Source: Trichocoleus sp. FACHB-46 (lineage in GTDB: Bacteria; Cyanobacteriota; Cyanobacteriia; FACHB-46). From it: a stretch of 64,000 bases of DNA. The translations under genes were made by a program, and so were the position numbers. Shown piece after piece: positions 742-56,455 of the stretch. The notes beneath the pieces are model-generated. The model did not search any database, was not told where the DNA came from, and saw nothing but the letters and a program-made list of their open reading frames with translations. Position 1 is the first letter of the stretch; each line of letters begins with the position of its first letter. Location: NCBI RefSeq assembly GCF_014695385.1, contig NZ_JACJOD010000033.1:62001-126000 (forward strand), read 5' to 3'.

Positions 742-1935
742 CTATCGGTTGCTACCAATCCAACTTCCCTGCTCGTCATAGTTTTGCGATCCACTCCAGC
801 CCCCTGCATTCCAAACCGCATCAAACGCTGGTTTCATAATTGAAAGAAGGTGAACATCAAAACTATCAACTAAGATTTCTGGAATTAAAAGCCTATTCCT
901 ATCAATGGGATGCACACGTCCAGAAGGTCCGTAAGAATTAGAGATGATCTGATAACCTTTCACACCGACAAAACTTAGCATGAGCACTAATGGTGGTTCT
1001 ATACCAAGCTCTTGCTGAATATCAAAAATTCGTTCCAATTTCTTGATGAGCTCTCCTTCGTAGTAAGGACGAATATATAAGCTCTCATCAGGCTGCGGCG
1101 CTACTGTAGAAGCATCAACAATTTCAAAAATCCCGTTTCTAAAAAACTGAAGATAGCCGAAAGCATGTTTCTCTTGTCGATTCCTCAAGGCACTTACAGA
1201 AGTTAGATATCCGTCAAGGTTGTACCTGCCATCCCAGCCGGAACTTCCCAATGGTCCTGGCGTTTTATTTTCTAGCAGCATCACATCAAGCTGGTTTACT
1301 AGGTCAAACGCCTCAAGTGGAATAATGTGAAACACTAATTTTGCTCCAGATATCATGGGTACTGGGCTTTCATCAGACGAAATCAAATCAAGCCGCTCTC
1401 GGCGAAAAGATCTAATACGTTCTACAAGGGACTCTGAGCGGCTGAAAGCAGCCCGAATTTCTCCTACATCCATTTGGTGCTTTCCCCCTGAATTGCGAAC
1501 ATAGAATCTTGCAGCGTTTCCAAAGGTCACCATATGAGGTGCTACCCAGCTTCTAGGTATTTGTAGAACTATAACCACTCGCTGGTTTTGAAGAGTAACA
1601 ACCTCAATATTCAGTCCTGGAATTCTAGGAGAAATCCCATCCCGAATCATGTTCTCCATTCTGAGCTTTTCTGCATCTGGATTGTCGAGCTCTAAGCCGC
1701 AGAGCTGAGTAGGTAGCCCCGCATCTTCACCCATTCCGAAGATTAGATGCCCACCTACTGTATTGGCGAACGAGGAAACATCATAAAGAAATTCTTTCTT
1801 TTTCTCATCGCTGCTAGCTAGGCGATCTCTCTTATAATCAATGATCTTCCCCTCAGGAAAGGCATTGGCGTTGTCTATTAATGCCTGAAGATCAGCCTCA
1901 GTGAGTGAGCTTATGGGTTTACCGTTAAGTAACAT
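742..1935 (-). CDS. AlbA_2 / Schlafen-like domain protein
   Basis: The first 150 or so residues match the AlbA_2 (Schlafen, former AAA_4) pattern: an early acidic-lysine element IIDYKRDR, then SSFANTVGGHLIFGMGE, which is the family's signature around its predicted nucleotide- or nucleic-acid-binding site. Residues 160-397 have no domain I can name. AlbA_2 proteins occur as transcription regulators and as parts of prophage and defence loci, and either would fit here beside a LexA paralogue and a methylase. The start ATG at 1935 precedes a run without other candidates. The exact role is unknown; the domain assignment is fairly safe. Confidence 0.7.
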   Translation of the reverse strand: MLLNGKPISSLTEADLQALIDNANAFPEGKIIDYKRDRLASSDEKKKEFLYDVSSFANTVGGHLIFGMGEDAGLPTQLCGLELDNPDAEKLRMENMIRDGISPRIPGLNIEVVTLQNQRVVIVLQIPRSWVAPHMVTFGNAARFYVRNSGGKHQMDVGEIRAAFSRSESLVERIRSFRRERLDLISSDESPVPMISGAKLVFHIIPLEAFDLVNQLDVMLLENKTPGPLGSSGWDGRYNLDGYLTSVSALRNRQEKHAFGYLQFFRNGIFEIVDASTVAPQPDESLYIRPYYEGELIKKLERIFDIQQELGIEPPLVLMLSFVGVKGYQIISNSYGPSGRVHPIDRNRLLIPEILVDSFDVHLLSIMKPAFDAVWNAGGWSGSQNYDEQGSWIGSNR

Positions 1936-1979
1936 ACTGAGTTTCTTCTTCCAATTCAGCTATTTTTTACTAACCCAGC

Positions 1980-2594
1980 CTAGCTCAAGCAACCTCGCCA
2001 AACCCCAACTAATAGACCTTGCAGCACTACGTCAGAGGCAAGAACTCGGATAGGTTCATAACGTGGGTTGGCAGGCTTGAGAACCACTTGCTTACCGTCT
2101 CGATGAAAGTATTTGAGGGTTGTGCCCTCCCCCTGCACCAAAGCTGCCACGATCGCACCGTTCTTCAAGGCTTGTGGATCGGGTACTGGCATCATAATGA
2201 CGACATCACCATTGTTGATCATGGCCCCGATCATGCTATCTCCTCGCACTTGGAGAGCAAAGCAACCGGGTTGAAGCGCAATTCCAGCCAGGTCTAAGTG
2301 CTCAACTACATCAGCAAAAGGTGTTACCACCTCCCCTGCCGCGATCGCACCCACAATAGGGATACCCTTGGGCTTCAATGGCTTTAAAACCCGCAGCGAT
2401 CGCGCACAGCCTTGCTTCCAAGTCACATACCCTTTATCCCGAAGTTGAGCCAGCCTTTGTTGAACTGGAGCCGCAGACCTTAACCCCATTGCTACTGTCA
2501 TCTCTCGGTAGGATGGACAAGTCTGATGCTCTTGAATGTAGGACTCAAGCCACTCCAGAAGTTCTTGCTGTGGTGGAGTTAGAGGAGGATTCAT
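1980..2594 (-). CDS. lexA: LexA-family repressor, self-cleaving (S24 peptidase)
   Basis: A winged-helix DNA-binding domain (about 1-70, CPSYREMTVAMGL) is joined to an S24 peptidase domain. The residues needed for autoproteolysis are all present: the Ala86-Gly87 scissile pair in GAIAAGEV, Ser120 in RGDSM and Lys161 in TTLKYF. LexA represses genes until RecA* triggers cleavage; some cyanobacterial LexA proteins have lost these residues, so an intact copy is notable. Its place beside a Dam-type methylase, in a region rich in phage genes, suggests a mobile-element paralogue that could link induction to DNA damage. It could equally be the host LexA; the window cannot separate the two. Confidence 0.85.
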   Translation of the reverse strand: MNPPLTPPQQELLEWLESYIQEHQTCPSYREMTVAMGLRSAAPVQQRLAQLRDKGYVTWKQGCARSLRVLKPLKPKGIPIVGAIAAGEVVTPFADVVEHLDLAGIALQPGCFALQVRGDSMIGAMINNGDVVIMMPVPDPQALKNGAIVAALVQGEGTTLKYFHRDGKQVVLKPANPRYEPIRVLASDVVLQGLLVGVWRGCLS

Positions 2595-2671
2595 AAAAAC
2601 GGCACTAATAGATCCCTTGTACTACAGTCTCTCACATGCTTCTAATTTTGAGAGCAGAGCGATCGCTCAAC

Positions 2672-3490
2672 CTATGACACAATCAAAACCTCGTTGACCT
2701 CACCTCGATTGTTAGCCTTCGAATTAATCGCTCTTCTAGCAGGAACAGTGTAGACTCGGAAATCGCTATAAAGCTCACGAATAAAAGGACAATCAGAGTT
2801 TGAAAGCGTTACCTGAACCCCACGCTCAGCTAAGTTCACAAATAGCTCTCTGAGTCTGATTTGGTCATGCTCGGTAAAACCATTACGGCTATAAGAAGTA
2901 AAACTGCTGGTTGGATTGAGCGGATGATAGGGCGGATCGAGGTAGACAAAGTCATTGTCAGCAGCATCTAAGACCGATTCAAAAGGTTGAGCTTTGAGGA
3001 CCACAGGTTGTAGCGCTGCCGATACCGATCGCAGCAATTCTGCATTGCAAATCAGCGGATTCTTGTAACGACCGAAGGAAGTATTAAATTCTCCTTTGGA
3101 GTTTTCGCGCCAGAGACCGTTGAAGCAAACCCGGTTCAAATAGACAAAGCGAGCTGCCCGCTCCAAGTCAGTCGTCCCTGGTTTCGCCCGTACTTGGTGG
3201 AAGTAATCACGGCTATGTTTTTGCTGATGTATAGATAAGTGCTCGATAAGCAGCTCCACTTGCTCACGGACACAGTGATAAACATTGATCAGCTCAGGAT
3301 TGATGTCACTTAACACTGCACGCTTTGGCAGGAGATGAAAGAAGACTGCCCCACCGCCCAGAAATGGCTCATAGTAAGTTTGAAATTTTTGCGGCTGGTA
3401 GGGCAAATATTTTGCAATCAGTTGGCCTTTGCCTCCAGCCCACTTCAAAAACGGACGAGGCGGAGTTGTTTCAAGGATCGGCGATCGCAT
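2672..3490 (-). CDS. dam: Dam-type N6-adenine DNA methyltransferase
   Basis: A D12-class adenine methylase of usual length (272 aa). The SAM-binding motif FLKWAGGK is near the N-terminus, followed by EPFLGGGAVF and the catalytic DPPY at about residues 184-187. Dam homologues methylate adenine in GATC, the core of HIP1 (GCGATCGC), so the many HIP1 sites here would be substrates if specificity is conserved. The ATG overlaps the TAA of the upstream 665-aa gene by one base (TAATG), which implies translational coupling. No restriction partner is adjacent, so it is an orphan methylase. Confidence 0.9.
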   Translation of the reverse strand: MRSPILETTPPRPFLKWAGGKGQLIAKYLPYQPQKFQTYYEPFLGGGAVFFHLLPKRAVLSDINPELINVYHCVREQVELLIEHLSIHQQKHSRDYFHQVRAKPGTTDLERAARFVYLNRVCFNGLWRENSKGEFNTSFGRYKNPLICNAELLRSVSAALQPVVLKAQPFESVLDAADNDFVYLDPPYHPLNPTSSFTSYSRNGFTEHDQIRLRELFVNLAERGVQVTLSNSDCPFIRELYSDFRVYTVPARRAINSKANNRGEVNEVLIVS

Positions 3491-5487
3491 TAGTTACCAT
3501 TTTTCTCTAGCCATTGCTCAGCTCGTGCATGAGCCCGTTCGATTGCAGCAGGTTCGTCTACGGGGATCTCTCCAAAGCGTTTTTGAGATCGGCATTGTAG
3601 CCGCCCGTTCTTGAATACCCACTGGTAAACGATGAAAGCAAAGGTTTTGCTGGGATAGGAACCAGGCGCATAAGTATTGCGAGTATCCCAAATCTCCCAC
3701 TGCCCCTCAACCTTGCCCTCAGCGCTGGGTTTGCGGTGCTGCTTGCCGCGCTCAATATCCGCGATCGCCTGCGAGGCTTGATCTAGCTGAGACTCCAGCG
3801 CTTGGATACGGTCATAGCGATACTTTGCGGCTCTGTAGCGGGCATACTCCACCTTCGTTAAATGGTGACGATTGGTTTTACCGCTGTCATCCTTAGTAGT
3901 GCGTTTAGCCGCAAAAAGCTTGGTTGGTGCGTAAAGTCGGTGATACCAGAACTTGGTATAGAACCCTGTCTTCTGTAGCTTTTTGACAACGGTATAGTCT
4001 TCAATCCCAGCGCTGGCCCATTCCTTTGGCCATACCATGCCGCCCGCCCGTACCGCTACTGCTTGCTCCGCTTTCAGCTCAATCAGATCAGCTTCTACGT
4101 GCCGTCTCTGAATGAGTAGAGCTTGCCGTCGCCGTTCTAATGGAGCACCTTCAATTACCGTGAGTTCAGGCGTTACGGGTTCAACTTTAGGCCAACGACA
4201 GTAAGCTCCATCCGCTGGCTGACTGAGCAAACAAGCCCAACCGATACTAGAGAGCAGATACAGTTGACGCAACTCTCCGTAAGGCAATTCCACTGCCTTG
4301 GACAGTTCTACTTCAATCTCTAACGGCAATCCGTGCTGAGCTGCTCGTTGGGTTACCGTCCAACCATCGTTATACCAACTCATGATGGTTTGGCGCTGCT
4401 GCTCAGTGTTGGTCCAGCCATCACCTGCAATAAAGAGAACCCGCTCAATTGTGAGAGTTCCTTTACTGCTGTCATCTTGCCTGGAAATTTGAATGGCCAT
4501 CTCGCTCGGCATTCGGTGCTCATGCTCTGGCTGCTGAGTTACTGTCCACCCCTGCGCTTCCCAAGCAGCGATCGCTTGCCGCTGTGCTTCTGTCAAAATT
4601 GGTTCTGGGTAATTGAAAATTACAGGCGGTTTTTCAATCTTTTCAATGGCACTGAGTGGCAAACTCGCTTGAATTGCCACCCCGCCTGTTGGGTTATCAA
4701 GTTCAACAGATGCCGTGCGCTTTCGGGATTGCCAATCCTCAACTCGCACCTGTCTCACTGTCCCTACATTCCCAAATACATAGCCTTCAGGAGTTTCACC
4801 AATCACCCGCACGCGATCGCCTACTTTAATGGGTTCAGCCTGGGCAAATTCCTGCGACTCTAGCAAAAATGGCTCAGCCATCTCCGACTTAGCATTCACA
4901 ACCTCTAACTGATTGAGGTCAAAGCGCCGAACACAAGTATCTCCTTGCAAGAGCACCCTGACTTCTCCTTGCAACTCAGGTACAACAGAAGCAGGTTGCA
5001 CCGTTCCTTGGCGATCAAGGTCGTCTTCAAGCCCAATCTCAGCTTTGCAAACTCGCACTAGAGTTCCGGGTGCTGGTTGCTGGGGTGCAGCCGTAATTAG
5101 TTGAAAGTTTTTCCTCGCCCACTCATTAACGACTAACCGTCCCCGAAAAATCCCATCTTTGGGGTAGGCACTGTGATAGGAGAGGTCAATTTGGGCGATC
5201 GCAGGTAGAACAACTTCGTATTCTGCAATCAATCCGTTAGGGCTTTGAAGGTACTGGCCTTTACACTTCCCTTTGCTAGGTCGCTCAGCAAGGTCACAAG
5301 CAGGAACTGAGAAGTAGCTCTGGACTAAAATACCAGTTGCCGTCCTTCGTTCCCCAAAACAATAATCTAAAAACTTTACGCGATCGCCAACCTCAAACTT
5401 TCGTTCGATCGGCGAAGTTGGAAAAACAAACCCTAAATCAGCAGAAACTCTTGTTCCTGTGAAATCTTGCTTTACAATAGAAATCAC
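3490..5487 (-). CDS. Large hypothetical protein with SH3/KOW-like segments and an internal repeat
   Basis: 665 aa, not recognised as a whole. Two segments (around KFEVGDRVKFLDYC and IKVGDRVRVIGET) resemble the beta-barrel entry of KOW or SH3-like modules. A motif is duplicated in the middle: AAWEAQGWTVTQQPEHEH and MSWYNDGWTVTQRAAQHG, each followed by an ExxxxISR/ELSK strand. The C-terminal third is basic and aromatic (YTKFWYHRLYAPTKLF). It starts with GTG beside a GGTTAACC palindrome and ends one base into dam. The barrel-like modules and basic tail hint at nucleic-acid binding, which is inference only. Confidence 0.7.
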   Translation of the reverse strand: MISIVKQDFTGTRVSADLGFVFPTSPIERKFEVGDRVKFLDYCFGERRTATGILVQSYFSVPACDLAERPSKGKCKGQYLQSPNGLIAEYEVVLPAIAQIDLSYHSAYPKDGIFRGRLVVNEWARKNFQLITAAPQQPAPGTLVRVCKAEIGLEDDLDRQGTVQPASVVPELQGEVRVLLQGDTCVRRFDLNQLEVVNAKSEMAEPFLLESQEFAQAEPIKVGDRVRVIGETPEGYVFGNVGTVRQVRVEDWQSRKRTASVELDNPTGGVAIQASLPLSAIEKIEKPPVIFNYPEPILTEAQRQAIAAWEAQGWTVTQQPEHEHRMPSEMAIQISRQDDSSKGTLTIERVLFIAGDGWTNTEQQRQTIMSWYNDGWTVTQRAAQHGLPLEIEVELSKAVELPYGELRQLYLLSSIGWACLLSQPADGAYCRWPKVEPVTPELTVIEGAPLERRRQALLIQRRHVEADLIELKAEQAVAVRAGGMVWPKEWASAGIEDYTVVKKLQKTGFYTKFWYHRLYAPTKLFAAKRTTKDDSGKTNRHHLTKVEYARYRAAKYRYDRIQALESQLDQASQAIADIERGKQHRKPSAEGKVEGQWEIWDTRNTYAPGSYPSKTFAFIVYQWVFKNGRLQCRSQKRFGEIPVDEPAAIERAHARAEQWLEKNGN

Positions 5488-5518
5488 GGTTAACCACCTA
5501 ATATCCCTTTTGGTTAAC
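5488..5518. promoter_or_regulatory. Paired GGTTAAC palindromes at the start of the 665-aa gene
   Basis: GGTTAACC (5488-5495) abuts the GTG start codon and GGTTAAC recurs at 5512-5518, two helical turns away. Paired palindromes flanking a ribosome-binding region suggest an operator. No protein in the window can be assigned to it. Confidence 0.3.
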
Positions 5519-5591
5519 TGAACGGGACGTTGGCGCGTCCCTAATTTTTTGGAATTGCGTTTATCTTATCATGATAATTGAATTGTAGTTT

Positions 5592-5894
5592 CTAATTCTG
5601 GACTTCCCAGAACCAGACTCGCAAGCGCCAAAAAGTCTGACGGAAGAGACATTTCAGGGAGTACCAAGGATGTCGGATCATGAGCTGGTGGATCGCTTGC
5701 TCAAAGTCCTCGGAAAGCAATATATCTGAGTCTGCTCGTGCATCCTCTGGGTGGTGTTCCCGCCACCACAGCAGAAAGTAATCTAAGCCTTGAAATAAAT
5801 CATTTAGATCGTTGTATCGCATCCAGTGGCGCTCCCACCAGGGAGATGGTGAGAAGAATAACGGAAGCGATCGCAAGAATCTCAGCATGTTCAC
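5592..5894 (-). CDS. Tryptophan-rich hypothetical protein, 100 aa
   Basis: Unrecognised small protein with many aromatics (SPWWERHWMRY, FLLWWREHH, FWRLRVWFWEVQN). The GTG start at 5894 overlaps the TGA of the preceding minus-strand gene as GTGA. That gene is now split by an insertion sequence, so this one may have lost its promoter. The 5' coupling supports the GTG over the ATG two codons later. Function unknown. Confidence 0.5.
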   Translation of the reverse strand: MNMLRFLRSLPLFFSPSPWWERHWMRYNDLNDLFQGLDYFLLWWREHHPEDARADSDILLSEDFEQAIHQLMIRHPWYSLKCLFRQTFWRLRVWFWEVQN

Positions 5895-6018
5895 TCGTCC
5901 TGGTCTTGCTTGATTGCAGCAATCAGCAGTGCATTCTCCAAGAAGTGAATCCCACGATTAACGATCTCCGGTGGCGAGACTGCAATTAATTTTAGAATGT
6001 GGTCGGTTAGACAAAGTT

Positions 6019-7477
6019 CAGGACTTGGAAGGTTAGGAGTAGAAGGAGAGGAGGCTAGCAAGGTATCGTGATGGTGAATCGCTAGCGGAGCAGCAAATGA
6101 TTCCCCTCATCGGTGTTCCTGCCACCATTGCCCAAGGGATGAGTGCTTATCGAGACGTGTTCTGTCGGGAAGCCGGATTCGAGCATGTCAGTCGCTATAT
6201 CAGTGGACTGTTGCTGAGCCAGAACAAGACCCTGCAAGGCATTCACGCTCAGCAGGTGTATCCGGAAGGCAAAGCCGTCAGTCGGCGAGCGATGCATGAG
6301 GCGGTGTTTGAGGCTCGATGGGATAGCGAGGTTCTGATGCAGCAGCATCGGCGGCAAGTCGGTCTGCGGCATCAAGGATGTGGGCGAGAAATCATTAGTC
6401 TCGACTGGACCCTATCGCATCATGAAGAGGGCGAGCACATCTATGGGGTCAAGCGCGCCTACGATTATGTCAACCACTGCATGAGCCGCTACCAAAGCGT
6501 GGTGACTGGCGTGATTGCGAATGGCCAGCAGATTGATGGGATTGCGGTCGAGGTGCAGTTGCCAGACTTTAGCGAGGCGGAGAGAGGATACCTGCGCATG
6601 ACGGCTCAACCCAGTTACGAGCAGATGGAACAAGTGAAGCAACGGTTGCTGGAGTTGTTGCACTATCACAAGAACCGATTGGCCTATCGCAAGCGCACCG
6701 AGATGGTCGTGGACATCGTGCGCCAAATTGAGGCAGAGGGGCAGTTTCCCCAAGCTGACTATGCCTTTGACAATGGGGTGTTAACCCTGGAATTGACGCA
6801 GCTGATTGAGGCCTCCGGCAAGCATTGGGTCAGTGAGATTGAATGCTCTCGACTCATTCTGTGGAACGGGCAATGGCGGCGGGTGGATGCGGTTGCCACC
6901 GAACTGCGCCAACAGCACCTAGAGAGTTTTCGTCCCCTTCAGGTGCACGCTCGCAACGGAGAACTCAAATTCTTTTGGGCCTTTACCAAAACCCTTCGGC
7001 TCAAGCGCTATGGACGCAAACGCCTCGTCATTGTGCATCAGCAACCCGATCTCAGCGACCCTCCGCGCTTCTTGCTCAGTGATGCACTGCATTGGGAAAG
7101 TGCCCGAGTGATTCAGACCTGGAGTTACCGCTGGGCCTGCGAGATCTTTCATGAGTTTTGCGCTTCAGGTGACAGGCTTCGAGTCGGCTCAGGTGCGCAA
7201 TCAGGAAGCGGTCAAACGCCACTTTCGTTTAAGTTGCGTAGCGCAGTCGCTCCTCCAGCAAGCCACCTGTCAGGGCAAGAAATCGGAAAGATTTGCGTTT
7301 GCCAAGCATCAGCAAACGGTGGGACAGCGGCTCTACAGTCTGACACGGGAGGCTTACCAGCAATTGCTGCATCTGATTGAGGGGTTGTTTGCCCAAGGGC
7401 GATCGTGTCAGCAAGTCCTGGAGGTACTTATGCCTGCTTAGCACCCGCTCTCTTTGAGCCTAACCTTCCAAGTCCTG
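6019..7477 (+). mobile_element. Insertion sequence with 19-bp inverted repeats and AAAGTT target duplication
   Basis: The ends are perfect 19-bp inverted repeats beginning CAGGACTTGG (6019-6037 and the complement 7459-7477). The flanks carry the direct repeat AAAGTT (6013-6018 and 7478-7483). The element is 1459 bp and holds one transposase gene on the plus strand with a frameshift. It sits in a minus-strand gene whose two halves rejoin in frame. Six-base target duplication together with the DDE-type transposase points to an IS4/IS701-like superfamily; I cannot give a firm family name. Confidence 0.9.
6097..7441 (+). pseudogene. DDE transposase with a frameshift
   Basis: Frame 1 runs from ATG 6097 through VSRYISGLLLS, ISLDWTLSHHEEG (probable first catalytic Asp), YAFDNGVLTLEL and WACEIFHEF. 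The natural continuation, LQVTGFESAQVRNQ to LEVLMPA, is in the next frame and ends at 7441. The shift coincides with a run of four T at 7154-7157; removing one T restores a single 440- to 450-codon frame. A T-tract slip mutation is the simplest reading. Programmed frameshifting cannot be excluded, since some IS elements use it. The frame 1 product alone lacks the C-terminal part. Confidence 0.85.
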
Positions 7478-7554
7478 AAAGTTTATTGCCTTTAAGCGCG
7501 CGAATCCGGTAGATGCAACGCGATCGCACTATGGTGCTGGGGCATTGGGAAGAT

Positions 7555-7950
7555 CTAGGGTTGGTTTTTGCCATGCTTAGGTGTGCAATCAAAGGTTCTG
7601 GCCTGGAACAAGGTGCGCCAATAAGTTAGGCGCTGTTCCAAAAGATCGAGATGACAGTGCTCAAGTACTTCCAAAACAAACTGCTCTGCAACAAGCTCAA
7701 TCCAAGCTTGTTGCAGAGCAGTATCAGGGTGGTTTTGGGTTGAAAGTTGATCTTGAATAATCCTTAAAGCCTCCTCTGGAAAAGGAGTGCCACCAATCAG
7801 GCGATCGCCTGTAACTAAGTTTTTGATGGAGATCACTCCACACTCAGTAGCTGCAGAAAGACCAGAGAGATGCAGTTGTTCTAGAAGCTGCTTAATTTCA
7901 TGCAACGTTTCGCAGCGCTGCATTTGCCTATTGATTTGCTCAGGAGTCAT
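7555..7950 (-). CDS. Hypothetical protein, about 131 aa
   Basis: Helical, glutamine- and leucine-rich protein without a recognised domain. I choose ATG 7950 (MTPEQINRQM), which lies 11 bp inside the end of the upstream gene as in the rest of this compact run; a longer frame reaches 8007. Its own end overlaps the ATG of the gene now split by the insertion sequence. The overlaps on both sides make this one of at least five co-transcribed small genes (8942 down to 5592). Confidence 0.55.
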   Translation of the reverse strand: MTPEQINRQMQRCETLHEIKQLLEQLHLSGLSAATECGVISIKNLVTGDRLIGGTPFPEEALRIIQDQLSTQNHPDTALQQAWIELVAEQFVLEVLEHCHLDLLEQRLTYWRTLFQARTFDCTPKHGKNQP

Positions 7951-8653
7951 GAGCAGCTCCCACAAACGCGGCAATTTCTGCTTCATGAAGAGCATGATCG
8001 TGGTCAAAATCTTCTGTTAAAGCAGCCAAAGGACTGCGCTCTTTAGTGGCTGCATAGCCATGACAGGTATCCTGAATTTCCGCGCTTTTTGCCAAACACT
8101 CGTCACAGATTACCGCGAGCGCTCCGTCGGAGGGCAAATTGCAAACGATGCAGCCCCACCCAGTTCCTGGAACAAGAGCTCGTTTGGTTAAGCTAACAAA
8201 ATTCCGCACGGTTGAACCTTCCTGCCGGCAAGCACAACACGCTCCAAAATCAGGGGGTTCTTCGTCTCCTGCTTCAAACCATTCCAGGGCTTGAAAGCTT
8301 CCCGAGAACCAATCCTCATCAAAATCCATCAATGTAGCAGCGCTCTGAGCACCTCCGCCAACCCCAGCAACCCATTGCTTTCCAATGGGCAACCCCTCTT
8401 GCACAACAGCGATCGCAGCTTCAAGGCTTGGCAACTCAGGATGATCTTTGTACTTCTGGCATAAGTTCTCTGCCAAGGCCTGAACTTGGGCTTCCGTTAA
8501 CCGCTGAGCGTCAATTTCGTAACAGGGCTGCTCATCAACTAGTGCTGTCGGAACAGGGGTAACAACCGGAATGCGGTTGAGTTCAAACAGATGCCGCAGG
8601 TTATCCAAAGGCGTAGGAATATCGTCTCTTAAGGTGCAGTAGCAGTCACTCAT
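7940..8653 (-). CDS. Hypothetical protein with cysteine pairs (possible zinc site)
   Basis: I take ATG 8653 (MSDCYCTLRDD) as the start because it follows the upstream stop at 8661 by a few bases; an in-frame extension reaches 8680. Three cysteine clusters, CCACRQ, CIVCN and CDEC, lie in the second half and have the spacing of a zinc-binding knuckle. The C-terminus is acidic and histidine-containing (DFDHDHALHEAE). No family recognised. It is the second gene of the small-gene operon. Confidence 0.6.
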   Translation of the reverse strand: MSDCYCTLRDDIPTPLDNLRHLFELNRIPVVTPVPTALVDEQPCYEIDAQRLTEAQVQALAENLCQKYKDHPELPSLEAAIAVVQEGLPIGKQWVAGVGGGAQSAATLMDFDEDWFSGSFQALEWFEAGDEEPPDFGACCACRQEGSTVRNFVSLTKRALVPGTGWGCIVCNLPSDGALAVICDECLAKSAEIQDTCHGYAATKERSPLAALTEDFDHDHALHEAEIAAFVGAAHDS

Positions 8654-8660
8654 AGTTCCC

Positions 8661-8942
8661 CTAGTAGGCGATCGCCCCACGAATAATTTGCCAAAGCTCC
8701 TTCTGTTTCCTTCGATCTGTGTTGCCTCTATACAACACCCATCTATTTTCAGAGCCGAGATACTTGAGGAGAAGAAAGTCGTCGTCAGATGACCCCAGAA
8801 AAATTCTCCAAGCAGCTTGGCTAGGAAATTTACGGAATCGATACCCCTTTTGCACCAAAGCCTGGCGGATTGCAGTAGCTTGCCTTGATATCAGAACTGC
8901 CACCGATTCTTTAGCTGGACGAGCGGAGGCTAACATAGGCAC
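8661..8942 (-). CDS. Hypothetical protein, 93 aa, first gene of a small operon
   Basis: Basic small protein (YRFRKFPSQAAWRIFLG) with no known domain. A GAGG ribosome-binding site lies upstream of ATG 8942. The promoter region carries a 20-bp palindrome at 8961-8980 that recurs in front of the radical SAM gene at 13589, so the two transcription units are probably controlled by the same regulator. Confidence 0.6.
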   Translation of the reverse strand: MPMLASARPAKESVAVLISRQATAIRQALVQKGYRFRKFPSQAAWRIFLGSSDDDFLLLKYLGSENRWVLYRGNTDRRKQKELWQIIRGAIAY

Positions 8943-8960
8943 ACCTCAGTTTTATTTAGA

Positions 8961-8980
8961 AACGTTATTTTTATAACGTT
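8961..8980 (-). promoter_or_regulatory. Operator copy 1: AACGTTAT-N4-ATAACGTT
   Basis: A perfect inverted repeat of 8-bp arms around four A/T bases. Read toward the gene at 8942, it and one flanking base on each side (22 bp) are identical to 13551-13572, and the orientation relative to transcription is also the same. A TTATAA within it could serve as the -10. The usual reading is a repressor operator over the promoter core. Confidence 0.6.
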
Positions 8981-8981
8981 A

Positions 8982-9001
8982 TCACAATCAAATAATTGTG
9001 A
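8982..9001. promoter_or_regulatory. Second inverted repeat TCACAAT-N6-ATTGTGA
   Basis: Seven-base arms directly adjacent to operator copy 1 on the upstream side. It may be a second regulator site or the target of an activator. It has no copy at the 13.5-kb promoter. Confidence 0.35.
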
Positions 9002-9039
9002 TTGTACAACAGCTCTCATTGACAACCTCCGAACAGACC

Positions 9040-10845
9040 TTAGTGGGCCAGTTCCGCACATTTTGCGGCTGTAGGCTGCTCGCGTAGGACTTGCAAGAAG
9101 CAACATAAATCTTTATCGCTTAACCGTCCAAGCGATCGCACCCGGAATTTTTTATACAAAAACTCTTTTTGCTGATCACTGCCCCAGCCAATCCGCTGGT
9201 ACTGAGCTTGGATTTGGGAAATAACTTCGCTTAAGTCCAGTGTTTCTGGAGGGATCGGAGAGTTGGCTTGCTCTGCCTCGGCCAAAGAAGCCTGAATTAG
9301 AGCTGACACGTCTTCTTCAGCAGGTAAGTAGCGCAAAGGTGGTACACCCCAATGAGGGTTGGCTTCAAGCATTGAAAGCACTTCATCACACCAACCAGCA
9401 CTCCACCAATTATCCAGGTGCTTCAGCAGCGTCACTTGATCGCCTTCGTCATGCATTGCCCCCAGCACAGCAACTCGGCTAGCAAAGACTTGTTCTGACG
9501 TTCGCGGCAAATAGACATCCAAAGGCATTTGCATAAATTCGCGCTCTGGAATAATGCGATCGCCAATGATGACAACCCGACAATCGCGCTTACCATCCCA
9601 CATCCAGGACACTGAAGCTCCCAATAGCGATCGGGCTTCCTCAAACCGTCCTAAAAATTCTGGTGTGGGCTCTTTGCCTACAGGTTTAGCAACAGCAGGC
9701 TCTGGGCGAGACTCATGACGGTCTTTCCACTCCAGCGCTTGCTTCCAATAGGGCATGGGTCGAGCCCCTAGGTAATTTTCAAACCTGGGAACCCCAATGT
9801 ACTGGCCCCCGTTACGACCAGCTTTAAGTTTCTTGCCCTCAATGTAAGCGTCCATACCACGCCCAACCATGTCATCAACGCTGACGCCTGCTTCAATCTG
9901 CTTATCCCAAACACGAGCTGCAATTTCAGAAAATCCTTCGTCCGCGCCCACTTCATCACAAAATTCGCAATACCTTTCCCACGCCTTCCAAAACTCTTCA
10001 GCAAAATACTGGGGTATGTAGGGCTCAGATTCTAGCAATTCTGTTTTTTTCGAGCTTCTGCACGGGCGGGCGGAAGAATTGTCATTGGCAGTTTGTGTTG
10101 CCTTGGACAAGGGGGGCTTCTTTAAATCTTGAGGTGGAGCTGTTGATGCCAAACTTACTTCCTGTTCCTCTTGAGTTTTCACCCCTACTAAATTTTTTTC
10201 CGTGCGCGCGTCATTAGTCTCCTGTGTAGTCTTTGAGTAGTCTATTGGTTGTATAGATAGCTGTGCCTGATCGGCACTACTTGCTGTTCCTTGAGGGTTC
10301 TTCTTGTTGTGCCGTTTAGTCACTTCCATAAGTGCCGTTTGGTCACTTATGGATTTTTCAATGGTTTTAGCCTCTTCCGGACTCGTTCTGGCCCGTTTTA
10401 GCGCATTGCGGAGGATTGTAATTTTTTCTTTGAGACCTGGATCTGCAATGCCGTGTTTGAGTAGGGCTGCATCTTCAGCTAGGAGCGATCGCAAGTGTTC
10501 TTTAATCCGCATGGCGGGAATCCACATTTCCCAGGCGGTGTCTAAAGCTTCTTGAATTAAGCGATATTCCAGCCGGCGAGGAATGCCGATAAAGCGGTCT
10601 TCAATCAGACCTCGTTCTTTGAGTAGCTTGCGAGCTACCCGTTGTTCTTTGGGTGAAAGTTCCGTTTCTAATTCCCACTCTTCTTGGGTTTTATAGATCC
10701 AACCGTCTGGCTTGCGTTCCTTGCCTGTCCAGTAGCAGAGCTGGCCGAGAAAAGTAGTGGCGTTGTGGCTGCCAGTGATGGGGACTAGATCTGGATAGAA
10801 CTGGATTGAATTCCCAATCCCTTCTAGGAGTTGGCTGATTTTCAT
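9040..10845 (-). CDS. Phage-type replication initiator-like protein
   Basis: 601 aa. Residues about 25-95 (FLGQLCYWTGKE, DGWIYKTQEEWE, ERGLIEDR) have the layout of the winged-helix domain of phage and plasmid replication initiators, where the gene reads 'if the tail clause W-x-y-K...'. A charged low-complexity linker follows at about 150-290, then a helical C-terminal half (YFAEEFWKAWERYCEF). In phages such proteins bind the origin and load the helicase. No helicase or loader is beside it. Assignment rests on the N-terminal pattern; the C-terminal domain is unrecognised. Confidence 0.55.
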   Translation of the reverse strand: MKISQLLEGIGNSIQFYPDLVPITGSHNATTFLGQLCYWTGKERKPDGWIYKTQEEWELETELSPKEQRVARKLLKERGLIEDRFIGIPRRLEYRLIQEALDTAWEMWIPAMRIKEHLRSLLAEDAALLKHGIADPGLKEKITILRNALKRARTSPEEAKTIEKSISDQTALMEVTKRHNKKNPQGTASSADQAQLSIQPIDYSKTTQETNDARTEKNLVGVKTQEEQEVSLASTAPPQDLKKPPLSKATQTANDNSSARPCRSSKKTELLESEPYIPQYFAEEFWKAWERYCEFCDEVGADEGFSEIAARVWDKQIEAGVSVDDMVGRGMDAYIEGKKLKAGRNGGQYIGVPRFENYLGARPMPYWKQALEWKDRHESRPEPAVAKPVGKEPTPEFLGRFEEARSLLGASVSWMWDGKRDCRVVIIGDRIIPEREFMQMPLDVYLPRTSEQVFASRVAVLGAMHDEGDQVTLLKHLDNWWSAGWCDEVLSMLEANPHWGVPPLRYLPAEEDVSALIQASLAEAEQANSPIPPETLDLSEVISQIQAQYQRIGWGSDQQKEFLYKKFRVRSLGRLSDKDLCCFLQVLREQPTAAKCAELAH

Positions 10846-11015
10846 GTCCGTGCTCCAGTGGGGGGAACCCTAAACTGAAGCCACATTTCCCGACCAGTGT
10901 GAGGCCGGGATTTGTAGTTTTCTGTGGTTTGAGGCATAATTTAGATAAGTAATTTTGAATTGCCCTCGCCGATCGCTCGGTGGGGGTATTTTTTTGGAGT
11001 GGCCAACTCCAAAAG

Positions 11016-11315
11016 TTAGATGTGAACCGTAGCATGCTTGGCTTTAGCAAGCTGTCTTTCTGCAATAGCTCGTCTGATTGCTTCGTTAATTTCTTTAGCA
11101 GCTGCAACATCGGCTCGACGGTCATCGATCGCTCGCATGACATCAGCCTCAGGAACCCCTGTAGTCCGACTGAGCCTTTGAATGCTTTGCCGGTTTGGTT
11201 GCCGACTGGTGTTAAACCACATTGAGAGCTGAACACTGTTAAAGCCCGTCAGCTCTGCCAGCAGTGAGATATTTCCCTCCCTTAAGTGTTGGTAGCTTAT
11301 CTGCACATAGTGCAT
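11016..11315 (-). CDS. Small helix-turn-helix protein, 99 aa
   Basis: Residues 17-62 (LLAELTGFNSVQLSMWF, RQPNRQSIQRLSRTTGV) read as a Cro/CI-type helix-turn-helix; a charged helical tail follows. It is upstream of the replication protein on the same strand and diverges from the 220-aa regulator at 11521, the arrangement of a phage immunity or replication-control switch. The 205-bp divergent region holds AT-rich promoter-like sequence. A perfect 9-bp hairpin (10992-11014) lies just past the stop. Confidence 0.6.
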   Translation of the reverse strand: MHYVQISYQHLREGNISLLAELTGFNSVQLSMWFNTSRQPNRQSIQRLSRTTGVPEADVMRAIDDRRADVAAAKEINEAIRRAIAERQLAKAKHATVHI

Positions 11316-11520
11316 AAAACTTTAAACGTTAAGATGATCACATTTATCGAATCATATTATCAGTTTGACTAAATAGGCTAGCATCACACTAAATTTAAAT
11401 AAGTTTGTAGCGTCAAGCACTCATAGAGTGGGAAGCCTTCAATATGCTAAAAGTGTTATGTTGTTAACGAAAGCGGAAAAAAGGTAATACTATTGAGTTA
11501 GTGAGACTACTGGGAAGAGT

Positions 11521-12183
11521 ATGGTTGCTGCTGTGCGTCAAAAATCATTAAATGATCGTCGTTTTGCAAGGCAATCATATGGAAAGCCTAAGTCGGATCT
11601 GACGCTCTTTGGCATAGCTCTGCGACGAACGTTTGACAATTTCCCTGAATTACTGGCAGTTAATATCTCTGCTGCGGTTCGAGCCAGCAAGATCGGTAAA
11701 ATCAGCTCAAGCCAGATATCAGGATTTAAAAACGGTAACCAAAACTTAAGGGCAACTAGCGTCCAAGACATTATTATCGGATTGCGAGAGGAACACCCTG
11801 AGGCGTTTGAGTATTACCTCTCAACCTTGATGACGCTTTTACGGAACTGGGAACCTACTGACAATAGTGACCAAAATGAGGCCATCATGCCAGACTATGA
11901 AAGCCTGGTTGATTTTATTAAAGCTTGGATGGAGCGTGAAGGGGTCTCGCAGGAAGAGCTAGAGAAGCGAACCAAAAAAGAAGGACTCTCAGCTAAAGCT
12001 CTGCGCGAAATTTTGGCAGGCCGTGAAATTAATACTGATAAGGAGCTAGCTCCTTTGTCTAGAGTTCTGAGAGATCCGGACGGCAAAATCTACGACTCAG
12101 ATGTGTGGAATGCTCTTTGTGGAGACTTGCCACCAGATTTCTCAGACGAATCAGAAGAACCCAATGGACATACCGTTGGGTAA
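11521..12183 (+). CDS. Regulator-like protein with two helix-turn-helix-like segments
   Basis: 220 aa. Residues about 30-95 (VRASKIGKISSSQISGFKNG) and 130-180 (MEREGVSQEELEKRTKKEG, ALREILAGREI) both look like helix-turn-helix segments; the second is the more typical XRE form. The C-terminus is acidic. It is divergent from the small regulator at 11016-11315, so the pair could form a two-way switch. That role is inferred from arrangement only. Confidence 0.5.
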   Translation: MVAAVRQKSLNDRRFARQSYGKPKSDLTLFGIALRRTFDNFPELLAVNISAAVRASKIGKISSSQISGFKNGNQNLRATSVQDIIIGLREEHPEAFEYYLSTLMTLLRNWEPTDNSDQNEAIMPDYESLVDFIKAWMEREGVSQEELEKRTKKEGLSAKALREILAGREINTDKELAPLSRVLRDPDGKIYDSDVWNALCGDLPPDFSDESEEPNGHTVG

Positions 12184-12196
12184 AAACCGGAGTTAA

Positions 12197-12856
12197 TTAG
12201 TCGTCGCTAATTTCTATTCCATAGGTCAATCGGCACCAGCGCCCTAGAAACTTTACAACCTCAATAGTCTGGGCACGAAATCTGTGCTCCTCTGTTTGCC
12301 AGGTACCCTCTTTGTTGGCCCAGCTTTTAGCTGTGTAGCAGGCATCGGTCAGTTTGCCTTGCTGCTGCAAATCCCGATTTAAATCGGCCAAAATTTGCTT
12401 GTCCCAAAGATCGTTTAGGTCCTTGCCTTGAATCGAAAAGGCCTTTCGTCCGCTAGTTTTGATAACTTCTTGGCTAGCGCAAAGCAGGATGTTGGTTTTG
12501 AAATCGACAACTCCACAGCTTACGCCGCTATCGAGAATGCGTTTAGCAATGTCACCGTCAGACAATGTTAAATTTGCTACTTGTATCATCTTTCTAGAAG
12601 AGTATCCTGTGACTCGCCACGGTGGGCAAAAAATTTCTCCATTCAGGCACAGTATGACCCACTGAGCTAGCCCAAGCATCAGCACTTTGTCCGAAATTTC
12701 TCTGCGTTTCTCCCACAAATTCTGAACGGTGTCTGGGTGAAAACAAGAAAAGCACAGAGCTGTTTCTCCACGGTAAATGCCTCGGTATGTGAATAGTGGC
12801 TCTTTATACAGAGAGATGAATGATTGGAGGACAAGTTCCTCAATTTGTAAGTGCAT
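12197..12856 (-). CDS. Hypothetical protein, possibly PAS-like
   Basis: 219 aa, convergent with the regulator at 11521. The C-terminal half (NILLCASQEVI, GKDLNDLWDKQ, EEHRFRAQTIEV) has the order of strands and helices of a PAS fold, but no diagnostic residue can be seen, so this is a weak guess. The N-terminal half, with CFSCFHPDTV, is unrecognised. Confidence 0.5.
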   Translation of the reverse strand: MHLQIEELVLQSFISLYKEPLFTYRGIYRGETALCFSCFHPDTVQNLWEKRREISDKVLMLGLAQWVILCLNGEIFCPPWRVTGYSSRKMIQVANLTLSDGDIAKRILDSGVSCGVVDFKTNILLCASQEVIKTSGRKAFSIQGKDLNDLWDKQILADLNRDLQQQGKLTDACYTAKSWANKEGTWQTEEHRFRAQTIEVVKFLGRWCRLTYGIEISDD

Positions 12857-13227
12857 ACCCTTTGTTAAGCAACGAAATACCGCTCAGTATCTGTGGGAAG
12901 AAACCTCTATTGTTGTTAGCTGACACACCTAGAGCCTGAAACCTTCGAGTCTGGGTACAACCGCTGCTCAAAGGTTTTGCTCGGATTATAAGATTAACAA
13001 TAACGTTTTCAAAATGATATTTTTAGAAAAAACGCTTTCTGATTCACAGCCTATTCCTGAAAAGAAGGCTTGGAATTTCCTCGTGAGCAAATTCTGATAG
13101 ATACTTGGCAACGGGGGGTGGACGGCAATCTCAACCCCCGTTGTTGTTGTTTACCAACGCAAAGTGGTCTTGCGATGGCTAGCCCTAGTTTGTCGTAAGC
13201 CAGTTTGCGTAACTGTGCTTACGATTG
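12857..13227 (+). other. Intergenic stretch with a 27-codon ORF and a terminator
   Basis: A possible -10 (TATAAG, 12987-12992) precedes a 27-codon ORF at 13014-13097 (MIFLEKTLSD...) that lacks an obvious ribosome-binding site. A strong hairpin at 13109-13143 follows. The segment could produce a short RNA of about 150 nt or a small peptide. Evidence is weak. Confidence 0.25.
13109..13152 (+). terminator. Rho-independent-like terminator
   Basis: Perfect 9-bp stem CAACGGGGG / CCCCCGTTG (13109-13117 and 13135-13143) followed by TTGTTGTTT. It lies 85 bp before the XRE gene. Confidence 0.6.
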
Positions 13228-13470
13228 ATGAGTCTAGCAAATTCAAATGGTGGGTCTACTCTCCGTCAACTCCGTCTTCGCCAAAAGCTTACGCAAAGGA
13301 AGCTGGGGCAATTGCTTGGCGTTACAGATACGACTGTTCGTAATTGGGAAAAAGGAAGGGAGGAGCCGAAGCTAACATTTCGACAAATAAAAAAATTGTG
13401 TCAAGTGTTGGAATGCACTTTAGATGACTTGCCCGATCAGGTGGACCTTAGGAAAGAAACCGGTTCTTAA
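13228..13470 (+). CDS. XRE-family helix-turn-helix regulator
   Basis: 80 aa, essentially one Cro/CI-type domain: LRQLRLRQKLTQRKLGQLLGV, then TDTTVRNWEKGREEPKLTF as the recognition helix and following loop. I take ATG 13228 over the TTG one codon upstream. It precedes the radical SAM gene by 118 bp on the same strand. That gene's promoter contains the 20-bp palindrome shared with 8961-8980, so this protein is the best local candidate for its repressor (inference). Confidence 0.85.
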   Translation: MSLANSNGGSTLRQLRLRQKLTQRKLGQLLGVTDTTVRNWEKGREEPKLTFRQIKKLCQVLECTLDDLPDQVDLRKETGS

Positions 13471-13531
13471 TCCTGATAGTCACTAAAGCGCTATCGTGAG
13501 TCCCTCCACTCACTTATCAAAACTGTACAAC

Positions 13532-13572
13532 TTGATTTACCTTTTTAGAGTAACGTTATAAAAATAACGTTT
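13532..13572 (+). promoter_or_regulatory. Promoter with operator copy 2 (AACGTTAT-N4-ATAACGTT at 13552-13571)
   Basis: A -35-like TTGATT (13532-13537) and a -10-like TTATAA (13556-13561) are separated by 18 bp. The -10 lies inside the palindrome, so a protein bound there would block RNA polymerase. The 22 bp from 13551 to 13572 are identical to the site at 8960-8981 on the minus strand. Confidence 0.6.
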
Positions 13573-13588
13573 TTAGCTAATTTAGCTT

Positions 13589-14548
13589 ATGGCTGTTCAG
13601 GGAAAGGAGTCTATTATCGATCCGCTCTGTAGAAGCAATCTCAGTAAGAAGGGGCTTTGTGACTACGTCATCAATGTAGCGACCGGATGCATTCATGGTT
13701 GTAAATTTTGCTATGTCACCTCAACCCCAACAATTCGCATGAGGGAAAAAGTACTTCGCGATCGCGGGGTAGCGGACCCACAAATGGATTGGGGACAGTA
13801 CTTATTTGTAAGAGAAGGCATTCCTGAAATTTTGGACCAAAAGCTGAGTCGCAAGCGGAGCTGGGACGAGACGGCGGCAGGCAAAGGTGTAGTGCTACTC
13901 TGCTCAACGACCGACCCTTACCAAAATCGCCAGTGTGCCCAGGTCACACGCGAAGCCGTTAAGGTGCTTTTGAAGTACGACAAGCGCGTACGTATTTTGA
14001 CTCGCTCACCCCTTTGGGTGAATGACCTAGATATCCTAGTCCATCCCAATGTCACAGTTGGCATGTCATTGCCCCATCTCAGTGACGAACTCAGCCGACA
14101 AATCGAACCCGGTGCCCCTTTCCCTAGCGATCGCCTGAAAGCTCTGACAAGGGGGCAGAGAGCTGGCTGTCGATTGTTTATTGCGATGGCCCCCACTCCA
14201 CCCATGATGGAGAGTTCTGACTTCAATGATCATCTAGAGCAGCTCGCGCTACTAAACCCAGAGATCATTTTTTGGGAGCCGATCAATGCTCGTGGGACAA
14301 ATGGGAAACGAATGCTAGCAGCGGGGCTAGAGTGGGCTAAGTCTGTAATGACTCAAAAGTCATGGGCCAGTCGGTTTGTGGAGCAGTGGGACATGCTAGA
14401 AGCTGCCGCCGATGCCACTCAATTGCGCGATCGCCTGCACATTTGGCCTGACCCAGAACTGAAAGGTTATGTAGAACAGTCTCGATTTGATTATTGGTGG
14501 AATCGACCAACGGTGGAAACGTGGCCAGTTTTACAGAAAACAGCTTAA
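13589..14548 (+). CDS. Radical SAM protein, spore photoproduct lyase-like (SplB/COG1533)
   Basis: 319 aa. The iron-sulfur cluster motif CIHGCKFCY (CxxxCxxC) is near residue 34. Around it lie DYVINVATG and, later, VLLCSTTDPYQ, VRILTRSP and NVTVGMSLPH, all characteristic of the SplB-like 'DNA repair photolyase' group. Such proteins use SAM to make a radical; true SplB reverses a thymine photoproduct, but most relatives have unknown substrates. It has its own operator-bearing promoter and follows an XRE regulator. The enzyme class is secure and the substrate unknown. Confidence 0.85.
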   Translation: MAVQGKESIIDPLCRSNLSKKGLCDYVINVATGCIHGCKFCYVTSTPTIRMREKVLRDRGVADPQMDWGQYLFVREGIPEILDQKLSRKRSWDETAAGKGVVLLCSTTDPYQNRQCAQVTREAVKVLLKYDKRVRILTRSPLWVNDLDILVHPNVTVGMSLPHLSDELSRQIEPGAPFPSDRLKALTRGQRAGCRLFIAMAPTPPMMESSDFNDHLEQLALLNPEIIFWEPINARGTNGKRMLAAGLEWAKSVMTQKSWASRFVEQWDMLEAAADATQLRDRLHIWPDPELKGYVEQSRFDYWWNRPTVETWPVLQKTA

Positions 14549-14551
14549 AAC

Positions 14552-15073
14552 CTACCGGAAGGCACGAACCTGGCTCTTGTGAATCCAACCATCGCCACAC
14601 GCACTTGTAGAGTACCAGTCGCCACGAGGTTCAACGTAGACCGGAACGACTTGCATGTTCTTGAGTGTGCACTTGATTGAACCCCCTGGGGAGGAACGCA
14701 CATTAGAAGGTGGAGCGAAGACCAGCATGTAGCCTGTGTCTTCTTTATTTTCGTCAATATGTCTTGCAGAACAAACAACACTGATCATGTTGCGAGTTGC
14801 TTGAGACTGAGGCTTATAAGTTTGACCATCTACTGCCCAAGTGCCTAAGCCACAGTGAGCACCAGTTTTAATCTGTTCGCCCCCAAGATAGTAGGTGAAG
14901 GCTGCTCCCCAACTCATGCCTCGTCCGTTGCGCTGAATTGAGTTGGTGTCGAGCTTGATCGACTGCCCGCCAGAAGCTGTTCCTAAATTGAGCATTTCAG
15001 CTTGAGCGGATTGACCAACTGCGAGCGACAGACAAGTAAGTGCTGCTAGACCAGAGATTTTAAAAGCCTTCAC
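14552..15073 (-). CDS. Secreted protein with C-terminal SH3b-like domain
   Basis: A classic signal peptide (KISGLAALTCLSLAVGQSAQA, cleavage after AQA) leads to a domain of about 90 residues with the surface-exposed-protein look of cyanobacterial periplasmic proteins. The last 50 residues (NVRSSPGGSIKC, GDWYSTSACGDGWIHKSQV) form a bacterial SH3b domain. Cysteine pairs may form disulfides. Convergent with the radical SAM gene, 3 bp apart. Probably cell-envelope associated; the ligand is unknown. Confidence 0.65.
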   Translation of the reverse strand: MKAFKISGLAALTCLSLAVGQSAQAEMLNLGTASGGQSIKLDTNSIQRNGRGMSWGAAFTYYLGGEQIKTGAHCGLGTWAVDGQTYKPQSQATRNMISVVCSARHIDENKEDTGYMLVFAPPSNVRSSPGGSIKCTLKNMQVVPVYVEPRGDWYSTSACGDGWIHKSQVRAFR

Positions 15074-15160
15074 CTATGACCTCCAAGAGTGGTGATTTAT
15101 AAGACTTATAATTCCCTGTGAAAACTTTAAATCGCGACTGCATTAACGGTTAACCGCGAT

Positions 15161-15898
15161 TTAGTTGGTGGAATTGTTGCGATCGCCTGATCCGGGAACT
15201 GTTTTCTGCTCAACCCACTTAGCTAAGCTTCCCAGAGCACCAGCTAAGGTTTCGCACATTGCGGTGCAGTTAGAGGTATTGGGGGTGTCACGATTGAGGG
15301 TTGCATACCAAAGTCTAGATTCCTCAAGGTAAAAAACCTTCAGCTCTAAGCGACCTGACTTTTCAGCCTCCTGCCACTCTTCCTGGGTCCAGCCGTCCAA
15401 TCCTTCGATAATAATTTTAGAAGTTTGCCTCTCTAGCTCAAAATTTATAAAGTTCCATCGAGGCTCTTCTTGAGGATCGGGGCTGAATTCGGTTGGAATA
15501 CCGAAGATTGTAAGAGGTAGACGTTGCTCCTCAAGCAATTGTCTGTATGGTTCCACTAACGATTCATACCGTCGAGAAACCACGATTTTGGTGACGTGCT
15601 TTGGGTTTTTGGTAAGGGCGTGAAGGCCACCATTAAACTTGCCGTAACTTAAAGCCTCACCAATTTCATATTCCAACGTGTCGAACCGTCTATGGCACCG
15701 ATACCATTGGTCTTCCAACCGTCGCCAGCACTTCCTGGTGTCTGCAAACTCCAGTTCTTGATTGTCTGGCTTAGCATCGAATTGGCCATGTAAATGGCAC
15801 ACGTAGCTTTCAGTCAGAACTAATCCTGACATTGGTCTATTGCAAAGGGGGCAGGTGATTTCTGGGCCAAAGAAGGGATAACTGGCTGTGGTGACCAT
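15161..15898 (-). CDS. TIGR02652-like cyanobacterial protein with extra C-terminal domain
   Basis: The start YPFFGPEITCPLCNRPM, the CHLHG pair and the following W-rich core (WRRLEDQWYRCHRRFD) match what I recall of the conserved cyanobacterial family TIGR02652, whose function is unknown. Two Cys/His pairs suggest a zinc ribbon. GIPTEFSPDPQEEPRWNFINF is also family-typical. From residue 165 there is an added region (DGWTQEEWQEAEKSGRLEL) absent from the family as I know it. The family call comes from memory of motif order, not a search. Confidence 0.65.
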   Translation of the reverse strand: MVTTASYPFFGPEITCPLCNRPMSGLVLTESYVCHLHGQFDAKPDNQELEFADTRKCWRRLEDQWYRCHRRFDTLEYEIGEALSYGKFNGGLHALTKNPKHVTKIVVSRRYESLVEPYRQLLEEQRLPLTIFGIPTEFSPDPQEEPRWNFINFELERQTSKIIIEGLDGWTQEEWQEAEKSGRLELKVFYLEESRLWYATLNRDTPNTSNCTAMCETLAGALGSLAKWVEQKTVPGSGDRNNSTN

Positions 15899-54894: not shown

Positions 54895-56409
54895 TCAGTG
54901 AACGCGCGGATTTCCTGTGCTTAGAGTTGTTGCAGTCACTGATATAACCTTATTCTGAGCGCTCGGCTGTTTAACACCTAACCACTCGCGCATAGGGGCC
55001 ATCGCACCCAAGCCGTAGTGGGCAGCATAGCCCAAGATAATCGGACCAGTCACTGGGGTTGAAAACCTCAAGGTGACTCGATAGCCTACTCGTCCTACCT
55101 TCTTCCCTTGACGACAGTCGGACTCCCATTCCCAAAACTTTGGAAATGGTTCGCAAGATGCTATCACAGCTATTGCATTATCCATAATGAGTGCTAACCC
55201 TTCTTCGTGCTCCTGGTAAATTGGATGACCTTGCAAGTTTAGCCAAGGTAAATGTTGTAGATACTGAAGCACCTGATGTTCTGGGCTGTCTTTTTGATAA
55301 TGCTCTGTTAGCATGCGTGGTTTACCACGACGAACTGTAGGAAATCGTGAGAGAAAGAAGGGAGTACAAGATATCCACTGGTTAAATTTTTCTTCTTTCT
55401 GTCCCAAATCAGCCAACGCCAAAGAAATGACATAGCCACGAGCAACATTGAACAAATTAGTGCAGTTCGCGATCGCAGCAAGAGCTTCTGGGCCATACCC
55501 CATCCGGCTATAAAGCTTCACTTGTTCAATATAGCGGCCTGTACGGTCTGGTACACATTGAAAAATGGTATGGTCATGATTCTTGCTGGGCTCGCCCATC
55601 TCCTGACCCGTAAAAACAGGAGCAGGACATCGACTGACTAAAACCTCATGTAATCGGTGGGTAAGCTTCAGGGCTAACTTGAAAGGCAGTCGAGGCGACG
55701 CTGAGACAGCCAGAGTAATTGTGTTTTGCTTTTGCCAGATTTCCTGCTGTATTTGAGGTTTTAGTGTATCGATCTGATAAGTGGCTTGGCGAATACCAGG
55801 AAAAACAGCCGAGCGATTAACTCCATAATTCTCATGAGCAGATAAGTTCAAGGCATTCCAGAGCGTGTCTGGATCTAGTTCTGGATCTGGAATCGATACA
55901 ATGCGCGTCCCTTGAGGATCAGGTTGAGCGCTGGATTCAGGAGCTTCTTCAACTAGGGAAAGTGTTGCAACCGATTCTTTCCGACCAAAATAGGTTACTC
56001 CTGATAAGCACAAACTTAATACCAGCTCTTCAGCTTCGGATAGGGTTGCTGACCAGTGAACGTGTAGCACATTCTGAGCGCTGGACATGAGCAGTCCTGC
56101 TGAGTAAAGAGTTTTTCCTGGTCCTGTTTGGGCTGTCTTCAGATCCACTTGAGGACGCGGGCTCCGGTGCTGAATGTAAGTTACAGATGGGAGGGTATAA
56201 CTGGGAAGCACTGAAGCTAACTTATGCAGTATTCCCTTCAAAGTCAGTTGATGTTTGTCCGCGAGTTTGACGTTATAAGCTCCCGCTACAATCGCTCGAA
56301 GAATGCGCCACGGAGCAGGAGGCCAGTCAATCACACCTTCAGAGTGGTGATTTCCCCAAGCACAGGCTTGGTATTGATTCGTGTGAAATTGAATTTCGAT
56401 GTGTATCAT
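54895..56409 (-). CDS. csb2: Csb2, type I-G Cas5-Cas6 fusion
   Basis: 504 aa. The start MIHIEIQFHTNQYQACAWGNHHSEG, with IDWPPAPWRILRAIVAG, is the hallmark of GSU0054/Csb2. The N-terminal part is Cas5-like RAMP and the C-terminal part (APMREWLGVKQ) the Cas6-like RNA-processing half. It would cut the repeat transcript and cap the crRNA 5' handle. It is the last gene of the operon, directly upstream of the array leader. Confidence 0.9.
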   Translation of the reverse strand: MIHIEIQFHTNQYQACAWGNHHSEGVIDWPPAPWRILRAIVAGAYNVKLADKHQLTLKGILHKLASVLPSYTLPSVTYIQHRSPRPQVDLKTAQTGPGKTLYSAGLLMSSAQNVLHVHWSATLSEAEELVLSLCLSGVTYFGRKESVATLSLVEEAPESSAQPDPQGTRIVSIPDPELDPDTLWNALNLSAHENYGVNRSAVFPGIRQATYQIDTLKPQIQQEIWQKQNTITLAVSASPRLPFKLALKLTHRLHEVLVSRCPAPVFTGQEMGEPSKNHDHTIFQCVPDRTGRYIEQVKLYSRMGYGPEALAAIANCTNLFNVARGYVISLALADLGQKEEKFNQWISCTPFFLSRFPTVRRGKPRMLTEHYQKDSPEHQVLQYLQHLPWLNLQGHPIYQEHEEGLALIMDNAIAVIASCEPFPKFWEWESDCRQGKKVGRVGYRVTLRFSTPVTGPIILGYAAHYGLGAMAPMREWLGVKQPSAQNKVISVTATTLSTGNPRVH

Positions 56410-56455
56410 GAATCTTATCCCTATAGCTTCTAGCCGTTCAGCAGGATTTCACCGA

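Follow-up and report, generated by a model that had tools for sequence, protein, structure and literature searches.

An IS701-like insertion sequence separates two minus-strand open reading frames (ORFs) of a prophage-like module in Trichocoleus sp. FACHB-46. This placement is well supported, and the element probably arrived by a single transposition into a short lineage-specific ORF, or into the leader or coding 3' remainder of one, with an uncertain start. The target would have been a 195-nt stretch between two ORFs of a prophage-like replication module, holding a short lineage-specific coding sequence, or its coding 3' remainder, that ended at a 100-aa ORF. The stretch of DNA analysed (the window, 64,000 nucleotides) lies on contig C33 of a 6.56 Mb genome in 92 contigs. 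The element and its parts are as follows.

6019 to 7477, plus strand: IS701-like insertion sequence of 1,459 bp, with perfect inverted ends of 19 bp and AAAGTT on either side
6013 to 6018, no strand: left copy of the AAAGTT target-site repeat, read from the sequence
7478 to 7483, no strand: right copy of the AAAGTT target-site repeat, read from the sequence
6097 to 7380, plus strand: transposase frame, N-terminal and catalytic part (Pfam DDE_5), leaving the frame of its relatives near 7150-7180 (comparison with L002, L069 and L070)
7151 to 7441, plus strand: shifted-frame C-terminal portion of the transposase (ORF list and relatives; weak IS701 matches far below cut-off)

The element is a transposon beyond chance: its terminal inverted repeats are identical at 19 of 19 bp, it is flanked by a direct repeat, and contig C67 carries another full-length copy with 88% identity. 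Two short fragments also occur, on contigs C32 and C5. The direct repeats of the two full-length copies differ in length, 6 bp in the window vs 7 bp on C67 (the latter by eye), because the C67 copy is bordered on either side by TTCTACA (also by eye) when the ends of the element are set at CAGG. The window repeat can equally well be read as a 4-bp AAGT with one extra base pair at each end of the element, and the C67 repeat is 7 or 5 bp long depending on where the ends are placed. IS701 elements duplicate 4 bp of their target. The 6-bp and 4-bp readings of the window copy yield an identical joined site. A search of the same genome for a second, uninterrupted copy of this 21-base site returned a sole match, with three mismatches and on another contig; the reversed control pattern likewise matched once, and the candidate was rejected.

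The likeness to the IS701-family/DDE_5 insertion sequences of cyanobacteria lies in the DDE_5 domain (E 3.6e-6; 27.2 bits, just above the cut-off of 27), in the two IS701 models that make up the NCBIfam matches listed for the transposase, and in four plasmid relatives, three from Acaryochloris and one from Kovacikia. The element differs from that family in its NCBIfam scores, which are far under the curated cut-offs (15.9 against 250 and 16 against 170), and possibly in its direct repeats, if these are read as 6 and 7 bp. The transposase changes frame at about 7140-7180, right after an EIFHEF motif, and does so in both genomic copies (88% identical). Its relatives L069 and L070, from Acaryochloris, keep a single frame across this point, where the alignment shows L069 to be one base shorter. 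The shift may represent either an inherited inactivation or programmed frameshifting.

The ORFs around the element, all on the minus strand, are listed below, with the two halves of the frame that it interrupts.

5592 to 5894, minus strand: 100-aa ORF, downstream (ORF list), with an ATG at 5888 preceded by AGGA 9 nt before
5891 to 6018, minus strand: about 42 codons, stop included, forming the 3' part of the interrupted frame; coding-like in composition
7484 to 7574, minus strand: about 30 codons forming the 5' part of the interrupted frame; in-frame composition not coding-like
7555 to 8007, minus strand: 150-aa ORF, upstream, with an alternative start at ATG 7950 and a weak resemblance to GIY-YIG nucleases (sequence searches)
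7940 to 8680, minus strand: 246-aa ORF of an unnamed family with a conserved Cys-rich motif (sequences of relatives)
9040 to 10845, minus strand: replication initiator O-like protein (PHROG 9773, E 1.3e-25), with N-terminal matches in 60 phage records

The surroundings encode a LexA-like repressor, a Dam-type methylase, the small subunit of a terminase (at 17779), a portal protein (at 49773) and endolysin-like proteins (at 42092 and 43666), with tail-type proteins on L054. They look like a prophage or the remains of one, the candidate genes perhaps belonging to more than one prophage. The disruption of prophage genes by insertion sequences is a common event, and the simple insertion with a direct repeat into an ORF of a prophage-like region conforms to it; the difference here is that the victim is an orphan frame with no known family. 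The window also contains GCGATCGC octamers, which are linked to cyanobacteria and, together with the plasmid relatives of the element, point to a cyanobacterial host. At 54895-61680, a Cas3-like helicase (Cas3-like_C_2 and Cas3_HD) adjoins a Cas_GSU0053 protein, with a weak Cas_GSU0054 match below cut-off; this is probably a CRISPR-Cas operon.

Deleting the element together with one copy of AAAGTT leaves an open minus-strand frame. This confirms the geometry proposed in an earlier, sequence-only reading of the window: the frame starts inside the upstream gene, at an ATG (7574) located 20 nt within the 150-aa ORF, and its TGA (5893-5891) overlaps the GTG (5894) of the 100-aa ORF. Two joins were tried, and the one that retains both AAAGTT copies places an in-frame stop at the junction. 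The frame is open throughout, as claimed, but the count of 73 intact codons included the stop: the 219 nt comprise 72 codons and a stop. No ribosome-binding sequence is seen by eye ahead of ATG 7574. Ahead of the 3' part there is just one further in-frame start, a GTG at codon 16, which likewise has none visible.

The openness of the joined frame is weak evidence for a gene, because a spanning coupled frame (beginning near the upstream stop and finishing at the downstream start) also appears in 458 of 5,000 trials in which the 195-nt gap was dinucleotide-shuffled with its flanks fixed. This frequency, together with the searches that gave no credible homologue and an ambiguous score for the frame as a whole, would suit an untranslated spacer, open in one frame by chance, into which the element inserted harmlessly. 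Such a spacer is unlikely, given the coding-like composition of the last 40 codons, which forward off-frame pieces rarely match.

Composition was scored with a codon model built on 45 ORFs of 200 aa or more from the window and two 12-kb flanks, the gene status of each being unchecked, and with a second model of the prophage region (12 ORFs of 742-15898). Coding-like composition does not extend along the entire joined frame: the 3' part has it, the 5' part lacks it, and the whole is ambiguous. Over all 72 codons the score is -0.022 bits per codon; 6% of in-frame pieces score no higher, and the value is reached by 16% and 12% of the pieces in the two forward off-frames and by 31% of antisense pieces. 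One antisense frame over the same stretch scores slightly higher (-0.012). The last 40 codons score 0.146 bits per codon, which 0.9% of 449 pieces match in each forward off-frame; with the prophage-region model the score is 0.121, and 1 of 168 forward off-frame pieces is as high. The first 32 codons score -0.231 (in-frame pieces of 32 codons average 0.114 under the 45-ORF model), a value as low as which is found in none of 567 in-frame pieces and none of 45 gene starts; under the prophage-region model they score -0.171, with 2 of 105 pieces as low. The G+C content by codon position agrees with this division, which was drawn at the insertion point post hoc: the 3' part has 0.60/0.28/0.53 and the 5' part 0.41/0.56/0.53, against 0.53-0.62/0.36-0.47/0.42-0.59 in the six neighbours measured.

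The true start of the interrupted frame is uncertain, as a coding-like signal is confined to its last 40 codons. The switch of the coding signal at about the insertion point could also mean that a frameshift preceded the insertion, the joined 72 codons being a shifted 5' end followed by a true 3' end. This is quite improbable: the better-scoring other forward frame over the 5' part carries 1-3 stops per 25 codons, and antisense frames there reach about 0.07 with one stop, and 0.10 free of stops only further upstream.

The low score of the 5' part is mainly a matter of amino-acid make-up, because synonymous codon use alone does not set it apart: values as low occur in 58 of 567 pieces and in 7 of 45 gene starts, which is not unusual. 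The 100-aa ORF likewise scores low over its first 32 codons (-0.167). Both points leave room for a full 72-codon gene, which is possible and, on composition, less probable than either a leader or a shorter coding 3' part. An intact, translationally coupled prophage gene of 72 codons before the insertion would account for the open frame, for its start in the upstream ORF and stop over the next GTG, for the coding-like 3' part and for the ordinary synonymous codon use of the 5' part. Nevertheless, this version is rather unlikely, its odds overlapping with those of the preferred explanation, in which the start is uncertain: the searches gave no credible homologue, the first 32 codons are unlike coding sequence overall, ATG 7574 lacks a visible ribosome-binding sequence, and about 9% of shuffles do as well. 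Of the earlier claim that a 72-codon gene had been broken by an insertion sequence, the insertion and the in-frame rejoining hold; that the rejoined frame was such a gene is only a possibility, for want of a credible relative in the searches made and in view of the shuffles and the 5' composition.

The intact homologue that the earlier reading had suggested looking for did not emerge as a credible match from searches of the class, plasmids, phages or viral contigs, which an orphan gene would fail as well. Searches with the joined frame gave no credible homologue in the 387 other genomes of the class (388 with its own), in the 3 genomes of the family, among the plasmids and phages or in NCBIfam; in viral contigs, 16 stretches matched one of its exact 8-residue patterns, with no relative among them. 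The sole class match beyond its own two halves, in G174, covers 44 residues at 30% identity with two internal stops (E 0.0096) and was judged to be chance, as were the weak, stop-containing matches of the family search (two further places in its own genome and one in G001). That the element broke a lineage-specific, translationally coupled prophage protein of 57-72 aa with no known relatives, and so cut the 100-aa protein off from its transcript, is a doubtful, if possible, fuller version of events.

The 100-aa ORF has one weak match outside its own genome (E 0.0039, 388 genomes) and no relative in viral contigs. Since it is nearly an orphan, the apparent 'operon' may be less real than it seems. 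The 150-aa ORF has matches in 4 other genomes of the 388, the best at E 1.9e-5 and the others at 0.005-0.01, and none in viral contigs. It weakly resembles GIY-YIG nucleases at the sequence level: the best genome match, a G181 protein, is a GIY-YIG protein by Pfam, and a GIY-YIG gene on a plasmid matches at E 0.08. Both tyrosines of the GIY-YIG motif are apparently replaced in the 150-aa ORF. Pfam returns no GIY-YIG match for it, BLASTP does not align it with the G181 protein, and comparison with solved structures yields only molinate hydrolase (E 0.04).

The 246-aa family follows the pattern CC.C ... GTGWG..VC.LP..GA.A..C..CL and, judging from it, is probably metal-binding. Its members are found in phage, Nostoc and other cyanobacterial, Anaerolineae, Ardenticatenaceae, Acidobacteria and Singulisphaera contigs; the three members scanned have no Pfam match, and the best PHROG match is at E 0.01. 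Relatives define 21 loci (5 in other genomes of the 388, 1 viral locus, 5 more and 10 genome contigs), several of the searched stretches being short or reaching contig ends, and the trio of 150-aa, joined and 100-aa ORFs occurs in none of the 21. Twenty of these loci were searched at E<=0.5 and the remaining one, the 3.2-kb L016, at E<=0.01; the only match, 16 residues in L075 (E 0.29), was judged to be chance. Six cyanobacterial contigs were read, and in five of them (L076, L077, L078, L080 and L083; not L081) an ORF of 372-398 aa directly follows the 246-aa relative; the one from L080, the sole one scanned, is a phage integrase by Pfam. A scan of the genome contigs with the 601-aa initiator yielded no relative, and the 31 viral-contig loci with relatives of it contain no match to the 150-aa, joined or 100-aa ORF at E<=0.01.

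The transposase is oriented against the operon. Under the preferred explanation, the element would separate the 100-aa ORF from the operon transcript, leaving that ORF silent, or reliant on read-through or on an unrecognised promoter. It is plausible, judged by position, that the gene at 5592 was cut off from its operon, as the sequence-only reading had supposed. A consensus scan of 5500-9100, which misses other promoter types, found one promoter-like site, on the plus strand (shuffles average 2.6), and so gives no hint that the 100-aa ORF gained a promoter. The same interval contains a predicted structure that may bear on expression before the insertion.

7680 to 7722, minus strand: terminator-like hairpin inside the 150-aa ORF (terminator scan and folding)

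This very stable 43-nt hairpin has 19 pairs in the predicted fold, a U-rich tail and a z of -7.0 against shuffles. Terminator-like sites as a class are not enriched overall, since the 5500-9100 scan returned 6 against a shuffle average of 4.0. If the hairpin is a terminator, the 100-aa ORF was weakly read even before the insertion; the predicted structure may thus already have limited read-through to it. A 20-base pattern from the stem has one exact occurrence in the genome, and three more places, which include the opposite arm of the hairpin, match with 3 mismatches.

The event is an ordinary insertion, and the victim frame is only a candidate gene; little else hinges on its interruption. Joining flanks has its limit, in that an open frame over a 200-nt gap falls short of proving a gene. 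Even so, annotation can miss short genes that are split by insertion sequences, and for these the joining of flanks is a cheap test.
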